The notes below the pieces were generated by a model. The model searched no databases. It had not been told where the DNA came from and saw only the letters and a list, made by a program, of their open reading frames with translations. From Pseudomonadota bacterium (lineage in GTDB: Bacteria; Pseudomonadota; Gammaproteobacteria; Pseudomonadales; Pseudohongiellaceae): a stretch of 64,000 nucleotides of DNA. Made by a program: the position numbers and the translations under genes. The stretch is taken from NCBI GenBank assembly GCA_027623555.1, contig JAQBSZ010000008.1, forward strand, positions 1 through 64,000, read 5' to 3'. This document shows, one piece after another, positions 7,480 to 30,798 of this stretch (position 1 is the stretch's first letter; each line of letters opens with the position of its first letter).

Positions 7480-8730
7480 ATGAACACAGAAGCATTGGTA
7501 TATGCAGACATCGGCGGCCAGCCAGTATTGGTCGGCAGGCTGTGGACTCGTGTGCGCAAAGACCGGGAAAGTGCCTCATTTGAATACGACGAACAGTGGC
7601 TGACACACCCCGACCGGTTTGCAATGGAACCGGCGCTGGCGTTGGGTCCTGGCGCGTTTCATACCCCCGCCGGACAAGTACTCTTTGGCGCTCTGGGAGA
7701 CTCCGCGCCTGAACGTTGGGGTAGAGTGTTGATGCGCCGGGCGGAGCGCCGCCGTGCCGAACTTGCCCGGGAAACACCGCGCTCGCTGCGCGAGATTGAC
7801 TACCTGCTTGGTGTGAATGACCTGTCACGTCAGGGTGCTTTGCGCTTTACCCAGGATTCGCAAGGGCCCTTCCTCGCCGACACGGCCCAAGCCATTCCAC
7901 CCCTCCTCGAGTTGCCGCGGCTGCTGTCCGCCGCCGACCGCTTTGCCAGCGAAACTGATAATGATGACGACCTGCGGTTATTGCTTGCCCCCGGATCTTC
8001 GCTGGGCGGTGCGCGCCCGAAGGCTTCCATCATCGACCGCGAGGGCCACCTGGCTATTGCCAAATTTCCGCATAGCAACGACGAGATAAACACGGTGCGG
8101 TGGGAAGCCGTCACACTGCAACTCGCTCAGGCAGCCGCTATTCCCGTGCCGGTGTGGCGGCTGGAAACTGTGGAGGACAAGACAGTGCTCATCGTGCGCC
8201 GATTCGATCGTGCCGGGACCTTGCGTATTCCGTTTCTGTCCGCTATGAGCCTGTTGGGCGCGAAAGACAATGAGATGCACAGCTACCTCGAATTTGTCGA
8301 TGCCCTGCGCCAGTTCGGGGCCTCCCCACAAGCTGACATGCAACAGTTATGGCGACGGATCGTGTTCAACGTGCTTGTTTCCAACACCGATGATCACCTG
8401 CGTAACCACGGCTTTCTGTACGCCGGGCCTGAGGGTTGGCGCCTGTCCCCGGCTTACGACCTCAACCCGGTGCCGATAGATCTGAAACCGCGTATGCTTA
8501 GCACCGCCATCACCGAAGACGATAATAGCGCCTCGCTGCAACTCGCTCTTGGGGTAGCCGCGTATTTTGGGCTGAAGCAAGTGAAAGCCGAGGAAATCGC
8601 GCGCGAGGTGGCTGCTACCGTGTCAACCTGGCGGCAGGTTGCTGCCAAGCTGGGCCTGTCGGCGGCTGAGATTGAGCGCATGGCCTCGGCTTTCGAACAC
8701 GTCGACCTGCAGGAGGCGTTGGCACTGTAA
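7480..8730 (+). CDS. hipA: HipA-family serine/threonine kinase toxin
   Basis: 416 residues from the ATG at 7480, four bases after hipB. HipA kinases phosphorylate aminoacyl-tRNA synthetases or other targets and cause growth arrest. The N-terminal subdomain (FGALGDSAPERWGR) is followed by the Gly-rich loop PGSSLGGARPK at 171-181, the AIAKF lysine near 195, the catalytic SNTDDHLRNHGF at 301-312 and SPAYDLNP with the metal-binding Asp near 327. All key residues are present, so the kinase is probably active. A longer frame from 7318 overlaps hipB and is not the start. Confidence 0.88.
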   Translation: MNTEALVYADIGGQPVLVGRLWTRVRKDRESASFEYDEQWLTHPDRFAMEPALALGPGAFHTPAGQVLFGALGDSAPERWGRVLMRRAERRRAELARETPRSLREIDYLLGVNDLSRQGALRFTQDSQGPFLADTAQAIPPLLELPRLLSAADRFASETDNDDDLRLLLAPGSSLGGARPKASIIDREGHLAIAKFPHSNDEINTVRWEAVTLQLAQAAAIPVPVWRLETVEDKTVLIVRRFDRAGTLRIPFLSAMSLLGAKDNEMHSYLEFVDALRQFGASPQADMQQLWRRIVFNVLVSNTDDHLRNHGFLYAGPEGWRLSPAYDLNPVPIDLKPRMLSTAITEDDNSASLQLALGVAAYFGLKQVKAEEIAREVAATVSTWRQVAAKLGLSAAEIERMASAFEHVDLQEALAL

Positions 8731-9137
8731 ATACCCCTCCGTTGCCGCTGTCGATGTCAGACTACAGCAATAGTGCTGAATCCTGTTGATTGGTGATTTG
8801 GTCTATTGTTAACAACAGAGAACCGCTAAGGAGGCTCTATACTTCTTGCATTGGTAACGCTGACCGTATGATTTTTATGAATATATACTCCCCCGAGTTC
8901 AACAGGTAGGCGGCCAATGCCATGCTGGCCAAAAAGATCAGTTGCAGCAATGAAATCGCCAACTCAGCTGAAAAGCCTGGTGCGGATGAGGTGCACGTGC
9001 AGCGCGAGAATGGCCGCACTGAAGCGCACCGGACTTCGATGGGATTAAATCCAAGCTAAAAAGCAAGCAAGACCAAACCCTAGCAGGTGCGACAATAAGA
9101 GCAGTACTTGTAAAATACCGGCTCACTGGAGAAATTG
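8731..9137. other. Non-coding stretch between hipA and the solo hicB
   Basis: No supported gene on either strand. A short minus-strand frame around 8837-9019 contains a hydrophobic run but no start signal or family resemblance. A HicA partner for the downstream HicB is not present here. Confidence 0.35.
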
Positions 9138-9350
9138 ATGTTCAAGTACGAAACAACCATCTACTGGAGTTCAAGCGACGCGTGTTTTATCGCCGAAATA
9201 CCTGAGTTGCCGGGGTGTATGGCGCATGGAGATTCCTATGAAATGGCGTTGAGAAACCTTCAGGAAGCCGCGCAACTGTGGATTGAAACTGCCAAAGAAT
9301 GTGGCGAGGTAATTCCCGAACCGCGAGATCATCGATTACTCCAAGCCTGA
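9138..9350 (+). CDS. HicB-family antitoxin, solo
   Basis: 70 residues from the ATG at 9138, with GGAG 6 bases before it. The motif YWSSSDACFIAEIPELPGCMAHGDSYEMALRNLQEAAQLWIETA is the compact HicB partial RNase-H fold; there is no C-terminal DNA-binding domain. The sequence closely follows the very common solo HicB type. No hicA lies next to it on either side, so it may act in trans, or its toxin was lost. Confidence 0.8.
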   Translation: MFKYETTIYWSSSDACFIAEIPELPGCMAHGDSYEMALRNLQEAAQLWIETAKECGEVIPEPRDHRLLQA

Positions 9351-9354
9351 TCCG

Positions 9355-9377
9355 CCGGCCAGTCATCGCCTGGCCGG
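9355..9377 (+). terminator. GC-rich hairpin after the solo hicB
   Basis: Arms CCGGCCAG and CTGGCCGG form an 8-bp perfect stem with a 7-base loop, 5 bases after the hicB stop. There is no T-run, so it is at best a weak terminator or an mRNA-stabilising hairpin. Confidence 0.3.
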
Positions 9378-9487
9378 GCATCATTCTGGCTCGGTCGTTA
9401 GCCACTTCGATTCGACTTATAGCGAGTCATTTAGACTTCTGACAGGCAACCCTGGTTCGCTTCACTTGGCTCAAATTAATACCCGAA

Positions 9488-9560
9488 TTGTTGACAATGC
9501 GCTTGAATTAATCGCCTTACCTCCGCATAATCGGCATCTTATTCGAATAATTGTTGACAT
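9488..9560. promoter_or_regulatory. Paired TTGTTGACA dyads before the GntR gene
   Basis: TTGTTGACAA at 9488-9497 and TTGTTGACAT at 9551-9560 lie 63 bp apart, near six helical turns, just before the GntR start. The same TTGTTGACAA precedes the truncated GntR twin at 6736-6745. The half-sites TTGT and ACAA around two bases are the sort of short dyad bound by GntR/FadR-type proteins. An autoregulatory operator is inferred; the element also contains a TTGACA -35-like hexamer. Confidence 0.4.
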
Positions 9561-9570
9561 ATTGCAGATT

Positions 9571-10305
9571 ATGGAAAGCGGCGCACCTCTAAAATCCAGC
9601 ACCCTCGCCGACTCCGTCTTCGACCGGCTCCGCACCGCCATCGTCAAAGGCGAACTCCCTCCCGGCTCCAAGGTCAACGAACCCCAACTCAGCAAACAAT
9701 ATGGCATCTCCAGGGGGCCGCTGCGTGAGGCGATCCGGCGCCTGGAAGGCTGCAAGCTGGTGGAGATTAAACCTAATGCAGGCGCTAAGGTCATCTCTCT
9801 AAACAGAGAGCAAGCCATTGAAATATATGAGATAAGGGAATCATTGGAAGGCCTGGCCTGTCGCCTGGCGGCGGCCAAAGCGTCGGCAGACGACTGCCTG
9901 GCGCTGCGCGAATTGCTGGCCAAGCACGAGCAGCAGATTGAATCAGCCGATGGGCGGCTCTACTACCAGAAAGAAGGAGATCTCGATTTTCATTACCTGA
10001 TTATCCAGCTAAGTGGCAATACTCGCCTGTTTAACCTGCTCTGCGGCGAGCTGTATCACCTGCTGCGGCTCTACCGCGTTCAAACCAGCAGTGAACCCTC
10101 CCGTCCGGTGCAGGCTTTCAAGGAACACCACCAGATTGTGGATGCCATCGAGAATCAGGATGCGGAACTGGCAGAGCTTTTGATGAAGCGGCATATCGCC
10201 CACGCCAGGCATGCCTTGATGACCAGGCTGGATACTGACCCGGTGTCTGGGAAGTACCAGGACTCAGCGATTACCAGGATTAAGGTGGCCGGCGGTGAAG
10301 TGTGA
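9571..10305 (+). CDS. GntR-family (FadR type) regulator, likely of the prp genes
   Basis: 244 residues from the ATG at 9571. Residues 12-75 are a GntR winged helix (VFDRLRTAIVKGELPPGSKVNEPQLSK, ISRGPLREAIRRLE). The rest is an FCD effector domain with the metal-binding pattern: Asp/His in GDLDFHYLI, His in KEHHQIVDAI and His in MKRHIAHARHA. It is divergent in role from the sigma-54 PrpR of enterics but matches the GntR regulators placed before prpBC in Pseudomonas-like bacteria. Probably responds to a methylcitrate-cycle intermediate. The effector is inferred from context. Confidence 0.82.
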   Translation: MESGAPLKSSTLADSVFDRLRTAIVKGELPPGSKVNEPQLSKQYGISRGPLREAIRRLEGCKLVEIKPNAGAKVISLNREQAIEIYEIRESLEGLACRLAAAKASADDCLALRELLAKHEQQIESADGRLYYQKEGDLDFHYLIIQLSGNTRLFNLLCGELYHLLRLYRVQTSSEPSRPVQAFKEHHQIVDAIENQDAELAELLMKRHIAHARHALMTRLDTDPVSGKYQDSAITRIKVAGGEV

Positions 10306-26002: not shown

Positions 26003-27049
26003 CTACAACATTGCCAGATCAACGTTGGCGAAGTCTTTATCGTAGTCAGACATGTAGGCTACTTTGCGTTCCAATGCGTCGAGTACGCCTTGATTAAAAT
26101 CGACTTTTTCGAAGCGCTGTGCACTGCCCAGTCCACCGGGAGAGAACACGTTTATTTCCATAAGTTTATCGCCCACGATGTCCAGACCCACCAGAAACAT
26201 TCCGTCCTGAACCAGTTTGGGCCGCACAATTTCCGCAAGCTTCAATGCCGCGTCGCCAATTTCGGCGCGGGCCAGCTTACCTCCGGCATGAATATTACTG
26301 CGCATATCATCGCCCTTGCGTAAGCGGCGAAAGGCGGCATAGTGGCCCCGATAACGCAGCGGCCGACCGTTCATCAGGAACAGGCGCGTATCACCTGCTT
26401 CGGCAGCCTTGAGGTATTCCTGGACTATCACATAACCATTGAGTGTGAGTGAATTAATCATCTGGTTGAGGTTTGATTTATCCTCCACTTGCACCAGAAA
26501 CACACCTGCTCCACCGGAACCCTGTAATGGTTTCATTACCGCATTGCCACCTAAATCGGCGATAAATGCGCGGATGTCGCTACGGTTCTGGGAAATTAGT
26601 GTTCTTGGCCGTACCTCTTCCGGGAATAACTGAAAGTACATTTTATTCATGGCCTTATTAAGACCTTCAGGGTCATTGACCACGATGACACCGCGACGCA
26701 TGGCCACGCGGCCAAAGGTAATGCCCGCAGTTTGGGCCCAGGATCGTATGCCACTCTCTGTCGATGGGTCTGAGCGCAGCATTAATATATCGAGATCGTC
26801 TACTTCGATCCTGGTTCGAATCGCTCGCGGGCCCTGCAAGTCTGCCAGGTAAGCTTTCGTTGTGGTGTATTTTTTATTTCGCACAGAACGGGCATTCGCA
26901 TATACGCGGTTATCGCTACCGACGGCGAAATCTGCGGCGCCGATCAGCCACACTTCGTGACCTCGATTCACTGCAGCCATTCCGAGACGAGTGGTCGTGT
27001 AACCCGCTTGTTCGCTCATTACATCATTGATAAAAAAAGCCAGACGCAT
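26003..27049 (-). CDS. ATP-grasp ligase A, GshB/RimK-like
   Basis: 348 residues from the ATG at 27049, with AGGA 9-12 bases before it. GshB-like layout: N-terminal Rossmann-type part (MRLAFFINDV), central VMKPLQGSGGAGVF nucleotide-binding loop near 171-184, QEYLKAAEAGDTRLFLMNGRP, and VGLDIVGDKLMEINVFSPGGLG at 287-308. All three Mg ligands of E. coli GshB are matched (Asp290, Glu298, Asn300), so it should be an active carboxylate-amine ligase. The substrate is unknown. The partner gene upstream encodes a collinear 348-residue paralogue. Confidence 0.78.
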   Translation of the reverse strand: MRLAFFINDVMSEQAGYTTTRLGMAAVNRGHEVWLIGAADFAVGSDNRVYANARSVRNKKYTTTKAYLADLQGPRAIRTRIEVDDLDILMLRSDPSTESGIRSWAQTAGITFGRVAMRRGVIVVNDPEGLNKAMNKMYFQLFPEEVRPRTLISQNRSDIRAFIADLGGNAVMKPLQGSGGAGVFLVQVEDKSNLNQMINSLTLNGYVIVQEYLKAAEAGDTRLFLMNGRPLRYRGHYAAFRRLRKGDDMRSNIHAGGKLARAEIGDAALKLAEIVRPKLVQDGMFLVGLDIVGDKLMEINVFSPGGLGSAQRFEKVDFNQGVLDALERKVAYMSDYDKDFANVDLAML

Positions 27050-27062
27050 TGTTCTAGTCCTG

Positions 27063-28109
27063 TTATAGCGTTGCCATATCGACATTGTCGAAACGGCGTT
27101 TATAAAAACTCACGTAATCGACTTTGTGCTCAATCTCTTCAATAACCCTTTGAGAGAAGTTTACTTTCTCGAAAGCCTGGGCATTGCCCAAGCCTCCCGG
27201 GCTGAACACATCAATATCCAACAGTTTGTCTCCGGCGATCTGCAAGCCGACAAAAAACATGCCGTCCTGCACCAACCGCGGTCGAACTGCTTCTGCGATT
27301 CGCATATGGGTGTCGGTAAGCTTTACTTGTTTTGTCGATCCGGCCACATGGATATCCTGCCGCAAACTGTCTTCCGTTCGATCCCATTGAAAGGCGGCAT
27401 ATTTGCCTTTAAAGCGCAGGGGTTCACCGTTGACCAGAAACATTCTGGTTAGCGAGTGATCTGCTGCGTCCAGGTATTCCTGGGCGATGACATAACCATC
27501 CCGTGAAACTGCTTCGATCATCTGATTTACATTCGACTTGTTCGACGGTGTGGCTCTGAATATGGATCGATCTCCAGAACCCTGTAATGGTTTCAGAACA
27601 GCATTACCCCCTACCTCTTTGACAAATGCTTTCAGTTCGTCTGCATCGAGAGAAATTACACTACGAGGTCTCACCGCTTCGGGAAGTAATTGCAGATACA
27701 TCTTGTCCATAGCCAGCGCCAGGGCATTAGGATCATTCAGCACGATAACGCCACCGAGTAAGGCAACCCGACCAAAGTTTATTCCTGCTGTTCGAGCCCA
27801 TGCGCGCCGCTCACTCTCCGATGCAGGGTTGTTGCGTAACATCAATACATCCAGGTCGTCAACGACGATCCGCTCTACATGCGCCTTGTCCGAGTGTATC
27901 GCTTTCAAGAACGTAGCGGGTGAACTGTATTTTTTGCCCGGCGCGGATCTTGCCCATGCGTGTACGCGGTCATCGGCATCGAGGGCAAAATCCGATGCGC
28001 TTAAAAACCATACCTCATGCGCCCGATTGACTGCGGTCATGCCGAGGCGAGTTGTCGTATATATAGCCTTCTCAGTTGCAATATCGTTTACTACAAACCC
28101 GATCTTCAT
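27063..28109 (-). CDS. ATP-grasp protein B, probable catalytically altered paralogue
   Basis: 348 residues, aligning with ligase A end to end without a gap (MKIGFVVNDI / MRLAFFINDV, YTTTRLGM, AVLKPLQGSG / AVMKPLQGSG, VFSPGGLG). The metal-binding positions differ: Asp290 is Gln, Glu298 is Asp, Asn300 is Asp (VGLQIAGDKLLDIDVF). The ATP loop reads GSGDRSIF rather than GSGGAGVF. It may be a weak or inactive partner that forms a mixed dimer with A. The start overlaps the DUF1704 stop by 4 bases (ATGA). Confidence 0.78.
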   Translation of the reverse strand: MKIGFVVNDIATEKAIYTTTRLGMTAVNRAHEVWFLSASDFALDADDRVHAWARSAPGKKYSSPATFLKAIHSDKAHVERIVVDDLDVLMLRNNPASESERRAWARTAGINFGRVALLGGVIVLNDPNALALAMDKMYLQLLPEAVRPRSVISLDADELKAFVKEVGGNAVLKPLQGSGDRSIFRATPSNKSNVNQMIEAVSRDGYVIAQEYLDAADHSLTRMFLVNGEPLRFKGKYAAFQWDRTEDSLRQDIHVAGSTKQVKLTDTHMRIAEAVRPRLVQDGMFFVGLQIAGDKLLDIDVFSPGGLGNAQAFEKVNFSQRVIEEIEHKVDYVSFYKRRFDNVDMATL

Positions 28110-30022
28110 CTTTTTAACCTTTTTACTAGATCCATTATGCTCATGCCTGCCCTGACTTCATCCAGCCTTTGCCTTGCGGCTGGATTGTCCAGGTAACTCG
28201 GTCGCACCGGTGCCGGGCCTAATATGCGCCGCAACTTCAATTCTTCAATAATAGGGACGTGCTCGAGATTGAATTTTCCTATGAGAAGCGAATCAAAGTG
28301 TCCGCCGTCTTGAAGGTGCTTCAAAACCTGAATCAAGCCCCTGAGATACACCGCATCCTTGGTGAATCCGCCTCCCCGGAATACCCGCATCGTAACAATA
28401 AACGCACTGCGTTGGGTGAACTTATGGTCGTTACAGAGTTCCTGGAATACGTCGATAAAGCTCGCACCTCCTACCATGCGGGCAACCGCAACTACCCTGG
28501 CAGCCAGTAAGCGAATGCGGTTGCTATCCAGCCCACCAGCCAGATATTCCGACAGGCAGGCGATACCTTCCTGAAATTCCTCATAGCCAGGCAGGCCCAC
28601 GTAGAGTTGCCTGAACGGTTGCATGCGGGCATTTATATAAGTCACCATATGGGTACCTACCTCATGGGCGAGCGATGCCGGTACCCGTTCCGGGGCAATA
28701 GACAGGGATTTTCCGATTAACAGATTCCCGCGAGAAACCATTAGCCCTACGACATCCTTTCGTATCACCGCGCGGCTAGTGATATCAGGCAGCGTTCTTT
28801 TCAGATAATCGAGTTCCTCATTAGCGTAGGCCGCAAACATCTCTGCATTTACGGTGCCTACAGTTTCTCGCCGACGGGGTGGTTTTACCGTCTCCAACAA
28901 ATTGAAAGCCTGGTTAACTATTTCACTGTCCATTCGACCAAATAGTTGCAGGCTGGTTAAGGTGAAATTGGGTGTGCCCCGCTCCGCCAGTAAGGATATT
29001 TTACGGTCGAGGTCCAACTGCTGGGCAAGAAACAGGTCGCCAAGAGTGGGGTCTTCTATCTTCTCCAGAGGAACCGAGAACAGCCTTCTTTTTAAAAGAG
29101 ACGGATCCAGAAGCAAGGGTCGATAGCGGAAGTCAGGCACACTCGAGAATTTACTCTTGCGAAACGACTGCCAGGCTTCTTCGGAATTGATAGGAGTTAC
29201 TGCAAGTATGAGGTCGAATGTATTACTGATTTCTGCCAGTTGCTGATCAACTTGCCACACTGCCTTGACCATCGCTCTCGGACCAAGCGCCAGAAAATGG
29301 GGAGGCCGGTGTGTCGTATGGCGCCGCGTAAAATCGTAGAACCCGCGCTTGGTAGCCCGGGCTATTCTGCCACACAGGGCGCGATGAATCATCGGATAGA
29401 GCTCACCACTTTTCGGGTTTCGATACGTGGGAAGAACCTCGATGCCCATCAAATGAATGCCTTCTTTTGCGGCTGTTGCTGCTGTCATCAGCGCCGGCAG
29501 ACCTGGAGGGGAGAATCGTGCGACTTCAATAACGACCACATCATCATCGTCCTCGTCCGGCTGCTCACTTACCAGCGCTTGTTCGAATGCCGAGACGGTC
29601 GATCCGATTTTATGGGATTTGGGCATGATAATTCGAAACGTGTCGCCACCATTTGCATCTCTTGCACTCCAGACCTCCACGATTAACACAGAGCCAAATG
29701 CCTGTTTCAGTGTTCGCGCGACTTCCAGTACCAGCTTGGACAAACCTTTATTCTGCTTAGCATCACCGGTTGCCATAAGGTATGACGCCTCTCCCATTAC
29801 CAGCAATTCAGTGCCGGCGTCTTCGGTTGCTTGCGGTTTTCGATACACCATTATAAAAGGCAATTGCCGGTCGATGTGAATCCGCCCCCATTTGGGCAGA
29901 GTACGACGAACGCGTTGTCCGGTAGCTACCCGTTGGCAAACCGTGCCAATAAACGCTTTCCTAATTAGGGGTTCGCGCCTGGCGCCAACGGTGCGGATTG
30001 TCGGTTCATGCTTACCTGCCAT
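28106..30022 (-). CDS. DUF1704 (QEGLA-motif) zinc metallopeptidase, MATCAP-like
   Basis: 638 residues. HEVGTH at 453-458 is the HExxxH zinc site and QEGIA at 484-488 is the family's 'QEGLA' motif, whose Glu is a plausible third ligand. Bacterial members carry the database name 'flavohemoglobin expression-modulating QEGLA motif protein'. The animal member KIAA0895L/MATCAP removes the C-terminal tyrosine of tubulin, so a carboxypeptidase role is the best guess. The N-terminal 250 residues form a separate domain I do not recognise. Overlaps both neighbours by 1-4 bases, so expression is tightly coupled. Confidence 0.78.
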   Translation of the reverse strand: MAGKHEPTIRTVGARREPLIRKAFIGTVCQRVATGQRVRRTLPKWGRIHIDRQLPFIMVYRKPQATEDAGTELLVMGEASYLMATGDAKQNKGLSKLVLEVARTLKQAFGSVLIVEVWSARDANGGDTFRIIMPKSHKIGSTVSAFEQALVSEQPDEDDDDVVVIEVARFSPPGLPALMTAATAAKEGIHLMGIEVLPTYRNPKSGELYPMIHRALCGRIARATKRGFYDFTRRHTTHRPPHFLALGPRAMVKAVWQVDQQLAEISNTFDLILAVTPINSEEAWQSFRKSKFSSVPDFRYRPLLLDPSLLKRRLFSVPLEKIEDPTLGDLFLAQQLDLDRKISLLAERGTPNFTLTSLQLFGRMDSEIVNQAFNLLETVKPPRRRETVGTVNAEMFAAYANEELDYLKRTLPDITSRAVIRKDVVGLMVSRGNLLIGKSLSIAPERVPASLAHEVGTHMVTYINARMQPFRQLYVGLPGYEEFQEGIACLSEYLAGGLDSNRIRLLAARVVAVARMVGGASFIDVFQELCNDHKFTQRSAFIVTMRVFRGGGFTKDAVYLRGLIQVLKHLQDGGHFDSLLIGKFNLEHVPIIEELKLRRILGPAPVRPSYLDNPAARQRLDEVRAGMSIMDLVKRLKR

Positions 30023-30798
30023 TAGATGCGCGCTCCGAGTTCTTTCAGCGAATCCGTCAGACCGACAAACGTGGCACTGAGGGCTTGGCCGAGAGCATGG
30101 TGAGCCGCGGTATCCAACTCACCTGTCCATTCATTCATGAATGTCTTTTTGAATTCCACCGACAAGACGCAGACCGAATCCGGAAATGCAGAATGGGCCC
30201 AGCTGCCATGTTGGCGACCAATGAATTTCACGTTTTCTCGCACATCCAGATCGCCCGCTTCACCCAATTCAGTGATGAATTTGTCGACGAGAAGGCCCCA
30301 CCGGCTGCGAATCATGGTGCCTGTGCCGATATTGACTTCCGGGTTGCTTTTGGGGTCAGCTGGAGCTCCCGACGGGCCATCGCGGAGATGGTTGTAACTG
30401 TGCAAATCCAGCACCACGACTCTGCCAAACTGTTTGACCTTCTGGCGATAAGCTTTTTCTAAATTGGCGTAAAATTCGACATGTTCTGCCATAGCTCGCT
30501 CGACACTTGATGCGGACGGTTTCTCATGCCACATGTCGAGACCCCAGGCATCTTTCGGCTCCTTATAGACCGCTTCCCAAAGTGCTCTGTTCAGATCGAC
30601 CTGGAATCTGGAATTTTTCGCGATGATATGCGTTGGCACAAGCCGGGCCCAGTCGCCAGTAAATGGATCCTCCTCCCTTAGTCGATCGGCCTTCGGAAGT
30701 TTCATATTTGCAGCGACCTCGTCGCTCAGTCCATGGCCATCGTGAATCGCGGTCGCGATAATTGGCCCTTCTCCGATTTTAATTTCCCAAGATTTCAT
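30022..30798 (-). CDS. N-formylglutamate amidohydrolase-like zinc enzyme
   Basis: 258 residues, first gene of the four-gene operon. Family marks: IHDGHG near 18-23, FQVDLNRALW at 65-74, VVLDLHSYNH at 128-137 and SVEFKKTFMNEWTG at 213-226. In histidine breakdown such enzymes split N-formylglutamate; no hut genes are near, so another N-acyl or peptide substrate is likely here. The last base of its stop codon is shared with the next gene's start. Confidence 0.78.
   Translation of the reverse strand: MKSWEIKIGEGPIIATAIHDGHGLSDEVAANMKLPKADRLREEDPFTGDWARLVPTHIIAKNSRFQVDLNRALWEAVYKEPKDAWGLDMWHEKPSASSVERAMAEHVEFYANLEKAYRQKVKQFGRVVVLDLHSYNHLRDGPSGAPADPKSNPEVNIGTGTMIRSRWGLLVDKFITELGEAGDLDVRENVKFIGRQHGSWAHSAFPDSVCVLSVEFKKTFMNEWTGELDTAAHHALGQALSATFVGLTDSLKELGARI

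Follow-up and report, generated by a model that had tools for sequence, protein, structure and literature searches.

The question raised by this locus is whether four adjacent minus-strand genes lying between pncC and mutS form one system and, if so, what that system might act on. The genes occupy positions 26003-30798 of the window, that is, the whole analysed stretch of 64,000 nucleotides (positions 1 to 64,000 of the forward strand of contig JAQBSZ010000008.1, assembly GCA_027623555.1) from a Pseudomonadota bacterium of the family Pseudohongiellaceae. They encode an N-formylglutamate amidohydrolase-like metallohydrolase (FG), a protein of the DUF1704/MATCAP family (QEG) and two ATP-grasp proteins (AG1 and AG2). 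On the evidence below, the four genes are a variant of a bacterial module that is widespread but uncharacterised and that seems to combine an enzyme joining amino acids with enzymes cutting them off.

Gene content and organization of the operon

The operon and its parts are as follows.

26003-30798, minus strand: four-gene operon, all four open reading frames (ORFs) present
30022..30798, minus strand: FG, N-formylglutamate amidohydrolase-like metallohydrolase, 258 aa
28106..30022, minus strand: QEG, long-form DUF1704/MATCAP protein, 638 aa
29315..29896, minus strand: FG-like domain at the N-terminus of QEG (residues 43-236), lacking the FG metal motifs
28121..29209, minus strand: MATCAP-like metallopeptidase domain of QEG (residues 272-634)
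28649-28666, minus strand: HEVGTH of QEG (residues 453-458)
28565-28573, minus strand: QEG motif of the QEG protein (residues 484-486)
27063..28109, minus strand: AG1, GshB-type ATP-grasp paralogue with a degenerate active site (predicted pseudo-ligase), 348 aa
26003..27049, minus strand: AG2, GshB-type ATP-grasp ligase candidate with intact active-site residues, 348 aa

Flanking genes are recA and pncC on one side and mutS on the other. The positions of the four ORFs and the 1- and 4-base overlaps between them agree with a first-pass annotation made from the sequence, and the families it had named were recovered as Pfam FGase, MATCAP and, twice, GSH-S_ATP, each above its cut-off. The 13-base gap that it had placed before AG2 depends on the start codon. 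If translation starts at 27049, an internal ATG, the product has 348 aa, which is the length of the homologues, and the gap is preserved; the alternative in-frame ATG upstream, at 27085, gives an ORF of 360 aa (26003-27085) that overlaps AG1 by 23 bases.

Conserved linkage across genomes

Loci, cited below by number, were typed with profiles built from the gathered stretches, which gave three classes: type A, to which the window belongs, type B and a short form. Forty stretches were selected by hand (31 long-form and 9 mainly short-form places), and five plasmid stretches, annotated or unannotated, were added from 121 matching records. The adjacency table leaves out two broken QEG rows of L051 (<150 bits) and places L066, a truncated long form, in the short class; L031 and L034 represent one S. 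meliloti locus from two strains.

A contig scan identified 17 relatives, one in an unplaced bacterium and the others in Chloroflexota, Planctomycetota, Verrucomicrobiota, Gemmatimonadota, Acidobacteriota, Actinomycetota, Bacteroidota, Myxococcota and Pseudomonadota. DUF1704 was present in 54 of 369 genomes in the class survey and in 47 of 398 in the phylum survey. In the type-A loci (45 rows), an ATP-grasp gene (AG) lay within 150 bases of QEG in 42 rows and FG within 250 bases in 31; a further two rows had FG at distances of 1.4 and 2.0 kb. Type-B loci had an AG within 150 bases, upstream of DUF1704, in 9 of 10 rows, while the short form had none at this distance (0/13); the 14th short-form row, the truncated L066, has an AG adjoining. 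The three-gene core was also found in Rhizobiaceae, Bacteroidota, Acidobacteriota and others. In annotated records, Rhizobiaceae plasmid operons show the order FG, DUF1704, "glutathione synthetase," as in the window; however, they carry a single ATP-grasp gene instead of a tandem pair, and their DUF1704 proteins are 34-36% identical to that of the window.

In addition to adjacency, gene fusions were observed. The type-B locus L057 encodes FGase and MATCAP in one protein, both above the Pfam cut-offs, and type-B DUF1704 proteins in general start with an FG domain (FG vs the N-terminus of type B in a profile comparison, E 2.1e-48). FGase and GSH-S are joined in one protein in L023 and L030, and L028 resembles an FG-AG fusion cut at the contig end. 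The fusions of FG to AG and to MATCAP thus tie FG physically to each of its partners. The first-pass annotation had named the absence of conserved linkage as a refuting outcome; the survey instead linked the families across phyla, and because this linkage is conserved and accompanied by fusions, we conclude that the linked genes are a functional module.

FG and the DUF1704/MATCAP protein

FG matched PF05013 (FGase) with 64.6 bits (cut-off 28.9), and its predicted structure, with a mean predicted local distance difference test score (pLDDT) of 92.0, matched the N-formylglutamate amidohydrolase 2q7s with Z 23.6 and a root-mean-square deviation (rmsd) of 2.7 over 238 aligned residues. The next-best folds after the N-formylglutamate amidohydrolases were poly-gamma-glutamate hydrolases and carboxypeptidases, tied at Z ~12. 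The motifs EEDP, D-x-H-[SAT]-Y and D-x-N-R were present in 32/32 FG rows; we take their residues to be the metal and substrate-carboxylate binders of an M14-like fold. FG thus has the Pfam family and the fold in common with HutG-like 2q7s; unlike HutG-like enzymes, it lacks a histidine-degradation context, and its relatives in other genomes are fused to MATCAP or ATP-grasp. No NCBIfam family matched FG at E up to 0.1, the HutG N-formylglutamate deformylase model included.

QEG scored 276.4 bits against PF08014 (cut-off 27) and stayed below the TIGR02421 QEGLA cut-off (322.1 vs 338.65 bits). In its AlphaFold2 model (pLDDT 86.7, predicted template modelling score 0.73), residues 272-634 matched human MATCAP 7z6s with Z 22.7 and rmsd 3.2 over 291 aligned residues. 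The HEVGTH and QEG motifs, already noted in the first reading of the sequence, are invariant in all 18 rows of the A2 alignment, and phmmer aligned HE(I)GTH and E(E)G to 7z5g. Fold and motifs point to a putative zinc carboxypeptidase-type domain. Human MATCAP/TMCP1 (KIAA0895L, tubulin tyrosine carboxypeptidase) has in common with QEG the family PF08014, the fold of residues 272-634 and an HExxxH followed by an E-G glutamate motif. QEG differs in being bacterial, with ~20% identity over the aligned part, in having an FG-like N-terminal domain and in being encoded in an operon with a ligase. An excerpt of PMC10499314 describes the animal TMCP/MATCAP proteins as C-terminal carboxypeptidases.

The N-terminus of QEG matched the FG profile with a probability of 97.8 and E 7.9e-13 (79.1 and 1.6e-5 with an earlier, poorer alignment), and residues 43-236 matched 2q7s with Z 13.8 and rmsd 2.8 over 179 aligned residues, against Z ~11 for other carboxypeptidase-like folds. 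DLHS-type and DLNR motifs were absent from all 42 N-termini of type A, and REED was seen in one; at the column that aligns with the motif His of FG, 31/42 have Trp and 0/42 His. As judged from profile and model, type-A QEG proteins, that of the window included, carry at the N-terminus a domain distantly related to FG in which the FG metal motifs are missing.

The ATP-grasp pair

Both ATP-grasp proteins matched PF02955 (GSH-S_ATP) above the cut-off (AG2 164.8 bits, AG1 122.9 bits). AG2 falls in the PRK12458 "glutathione synthetase" subfamily NF009110 (455.2 bits, cut-off 408) and remains below both glutathione-synthase equivalog cut-offs (TIGR01380, 195.4 vs 299.05; NF003573, 207.5 vs 272). Its best solved relative is E. 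coli GshB (1gsa, phmmer E 1.6e-32). The RimK-type glutamate ligases are ATP-grasp enzymes as well, and AG2 matched the RimK-type 5zct more weakly (E 5.3e-10) and PF08443 above its cut-off; however, it did not reach the RimK cut-off of TIGR00768 (81.3 vs 143.4 bits; AG1 46.4). AG2 retains the active-site residues of E. coli GshB at positions 208, 225, 273, 281 and 283, but differs from that enzyme in its acceptor loop (SPGG vs SPTC) and in coming with a tandem pseudo-copy. The host has a canonical gshB elsewhere (446 bits) and gshA (603 bits), and AG2 is thus not needed for plain glutathione synthesis. Such a role is disfavoured by these host genes and by the scores of AG2 under the equivalog cut-offs. 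The type-B AG of L057 (6169-7209) passes an NCBIfam glutathione-synthase equivalog cut-off (276.5 vs 272).

For AG1, the comparison set comprised all AGs of at least 300 bits, without selection against degenerate copies, which score 463-506. Tandem AGs were found in only three loci, namely the window, L039 and L074, the latter two from other families of the class. At GshB positions 208, 225, 273, 281 and 283 the window AG1 has Leu, Trp, Gln, Asp and Asp, so that none of the five residues is kept, whereas D, R, D, E and N are kept in 52/52 other AGs; we take residues 273, 281 and 283 of E. coli GshB to be magnesium binders and assume the usual roles for the other active-site positions. In the order window, L074, L039, the AG1 changes are D to L/S/S at 208, R to W/W/W at 225, D to Q/H/E at 273, E to D at 281, N to D/N/D at 283 and G to D/N/S at 167. 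Active-site residues were lost in the DUF1704-adjoining copy in 3/3 tandem loci, against 0/52 other AGs. All AG1s lie below the NF009110 cut-off of 408 (window 395.7, L039 353.1, L074 402.5), and the window AG1 is also below the glutathione-synthase equivalogs TIGR01380 and NF003573 (146.5 and 152.2). This loss speaks against the pair being two active ligases, and that reading was rejected.

AG1 has nevertheless been retained for long. In the tree, the three AG1s group in a single clade and the AG2s paired with them in a second one (support 100/99 each), which indicates one duplication, inherited or transferred as a pair; in the window, AG1 and AG2 are 55% identical. Pairwise identity among the AG1s is 53-61%, and nonsynonymous divergence (pN) is 0.25-0.30 against synonymous divergence (pS) of 0.81-0.84, at which synonymous sites are saturated. 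With pN low relative to the saturated pS, the protein is constrained although its catalytic set is gone, and we regard AG1 as a predicted pseudo-ligase maintained under protein-level constraint. It is unlikely that AG1 still works as a ligase with altered metal use or as a nucleotide-binding sensor. Both ATP-site lysines (125 and 160) and Arg 210 and 233 are kept in all three AG1s, and Asp at 281 or 283 could still bind metal; however, Gln/His/Glu at 273, Trp in all three at 225 and Leu/Ser/Ser at 208 stand against full conservation of these positions in the other AGs.

Probable acquisition of the operon

No operon gene was seen at any of 29 same-genus mutS loci (flank of at most 1.5 kb each). 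In 26 of them pncC adjoins mutS; the other three show neither, and their flank is uninformative. Elsewhere in the genus, 36 genomes gave no DUF1704 match. In the order, 25/390 genomes matched the long-form DUF1704 profile, and the type-A score range was reached only by the window's own genome (879 and 724 bits; next 360). Since the operon is absent from the site in 29/29 same-genus mutS loci, it was probably acquired at its present position. A compositional sign of transfer was not found: the GC content of the operon (~0.50-0.52) is similar to that of its surroundings, and thus the transfer need not be recent.

Two further DUF1704 genes were observed. The same genome has a second long-form gene (contig C43, L008:1821-3722), 42% identical to that of the window, which has no FG or AG on its 5.6-kb contig and is adjoined by a transporter gene. 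In another family, a broken DUF1704 gene with several stops (L051:2703-3612) lies ~1 kb from mutS-pncC-recA, near the same chromosomal neighbourhood as the operon of the window.

Neighbouring genes and expression data

The genes noted beside the operon in other loci are listed below; the small-ORF and neighbour clusters rest on a crude ORF caller.

L052:10910-11269: small secreted protein gene upstream of the operon
L059:4037-4309: small secreted protein gene upstream of the operon
L063:10636-10938: small secreted protein gene upstream of the operon
L065:12774-13495: small secreted protein genes upstream of the operon, two copies
L058:9864-10910 and 7961-9880: deacylase and DUF1704 pair
L013:1258-1608: DUF413 gene
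L057:5671-6012: DUF413 gene (by Pfam)
L110:4530-4889: DUF413 gene (by annotation)

A conserved small substrate gene was rejected as a candidate, as the blastp groups comprised at most four loci and many were antisense or chance frames. The only small-ORF group that looked real was the small secreted protein of L052, L059, L063 and L065, which is acidic, apparently secreted and carries a C-(Y/W)-x-x-ED-x-V motif; the two copies tested (L052 and L063) had no Pfam match. In L058, an AstE/AspA-family deacylase (PF24827) overlaps the type-A DUF1704 gene where FG would be expected, with no AG nearby. In L062, L064 and L066, relatives of Zn_protease (PF05618), 7TM_transglut and ATPgrasp_ST, assigned by a Pfam run on one protein per family, adjoin the operon as a second ligase/protease-like cassette. 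A DUF413 (maoP) gene stands directly upstream of type-B operons, with a divergent LysR regulator. A defence system was rejected, as none of the four proteins matched a PADLOC-DB anti-phage family at E up to 0.001.

Published data may touch type-B relatives of the module. In Photobacterium damselae at 1% vs 3% NaCl, the "GshB" gene A0J47_RS17020 was up 38.4-fold, the neighbouring QEGLA protein gene A0J47_RS17025 27.5-fold and RimK 52.2-fold, according to an excerpt of PMC10308900, in which A0J47_RS17020 is treated as a glutathione enzyme. From the Photobacterium relative L111, where an AG overlaps a type-B DUF1704 gene, and from the type-B AG that passes the GshB equivalog cut-off, we infer that the P. 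damselae pair is probably a type-B operon. In Vibrio vulnificus, the neighbouring genes VV2_1203 (COG3930) and VV2_1204 (COG0189) are listed as clade-2-specific in an excerpt of PMC3091676.

Proposed mechanism and alternative explanations

We propose, in a reading for which we see about equal weight for and against, that one ligase and two metallohydrolases, together with pseudoenzyme partners, share a substrate on which they build up and trim back an acidic, glutamate-like extension. The operon would have been acquired horizontally, as one form of a conserved module with three activities. AG2, of the GshB/RimK type, would activate a substrate carboxylate as an acyl phosphate and then add an amino acid; the MATCAP domain of QEG would remove C-terminal residues; and FG, as a metallohydrolase of M14-like type whose Arg/Asn-Arg set would bind a carboxylate, would remove an acyl or aminoacyl group beside an acidic residue. 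We infer that these three proteins have a common substrate and probably form one complex, and that in this way the acidic, glutamate-like extension would be added, trimmed or recycled. AG1 and the FG-like N-terminal domain of QEG would be non-catalytic copies serving as scaffold, substrate-binding or regulatory parts. The build-and-trim logic of the first-pass annotation is kept here insofar as a ligase with carboxypeptidase-type hydrolases fits it; a picture of two active ligases is given up.

Several observations weigh against the proposal. The type-A loci L008, L020 and L058 have no AG, although the L020 contig ends inside the operon; L038 lacks one too, as does the type-B DUF1704 of Vibrio sp. 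HDW18. FG was not found in L015, L021 and L063 despite >2.6 kb of upstream sequence. AG2 resembles GshB more closely than RimK, and it may add glycine instead of glutamate. Unrelated carboxypeptidase folds also give a middling Z (11.4) for the N-terminal domain of QEG. Finally, no substrate was found, and the blastp small-ORF comparison gave no small gene conserved across loci beyond narrow groups.

It is possible, although we consider it doubtful, that the module makes and recycles a small glutathione-like or N-acyl-glutamyl peptide for redox, osmolyte or storage purposes and modifies no protein. The AGs score in the "glutathione synthetase" subfamily NF009110, FG belongs to the N-formylglutamate amidohydrolase family, and the salt-dependent induction of the P. 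damselae "GshB" and QEGLA genes could be an osmolyte response. However, a MATCAP-fold carboxypeptidase is more usual for peptides or proteins, and the RimK induced in the same excerpted comparison (PMC10308900) is a protein glutamate ligase, which fits protein modification equally well.

A narrower version of the build-and-trim proposal is reversible tail editing, in which an ATP-grasp ligase would form a complex with a MATCAP-type carboxypeptidase to add and remove acidic residues at a cellular protein's C-terminus, FG would clear or cap the acidic end, and the dead paralogues AG1 and the FG-like domain of QEG would be built-in regulators or substrate receptors. We consider this rather unlikely, and the analogy to tubulin is speculation.

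ATP-grasp ligases make graspetides and related peptides, and AG2 could accordingly modify a precursor peptide in a ribosomal natural-product cluster, with the hydrolases maturing the product. The small secreted protein upstream of four operons would suit such a cluster; however, the small-ORF comparison revealed no precursor gene common across phyla and no exporter is conserved among the neighbours, which makes this explanation improbable. The database names (glutathione synthetase, N-formylglutamate amidohydrolase and QEGLA protein) would suggest a second glutathione synthase grouped by accident with unrelated hydrolases, but four unrelated enzymes are rejected on the conserved linkage and the fusions, and with AG2 under two equivalog cut-offs in a host that has gshA and gshB, this is very improbable.

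Novelty and significance

Public annotation already shows the three-gene core. A literature search, with most subscription journals outside its scope, returned no paper describing this core and none joining DUF1704 with ATP-grasp or ATP-grasp with N-formylglutamate amidohydrolase. A 2009 survey of ATP-grasp amidoligase gene neighbourhoods by Iyer et al. may mention part of the linkage. The new elements are the active/dead tandem of ATP-grasp proteins and the FG-like domain on DUF1704. A dead AG1 retained beside an active-type twin would, from its residues, be a clear case of a pseudoenzyme.

The members of the module carry misleading names, namely glutathione synthase, flavohemoglobin-modulating protein and N-formylglutamate amidohydrolase. 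Since a type-B AG passes a glutathione-synthase equivalog cut-off, genes of this system may be annotated as GshB, and expression or phenotype results published for "GshB" may in fact concern it. If reversible tail editing were true, the animal MATCAP/TMCP family would have its counterpart in prokaryotes, and the machine might even be the setting from which that family arose. Named as one unit with a testable ligase/hydrolase logic, the module would provide a biochemical frame for the bacterial DUF1704 family.

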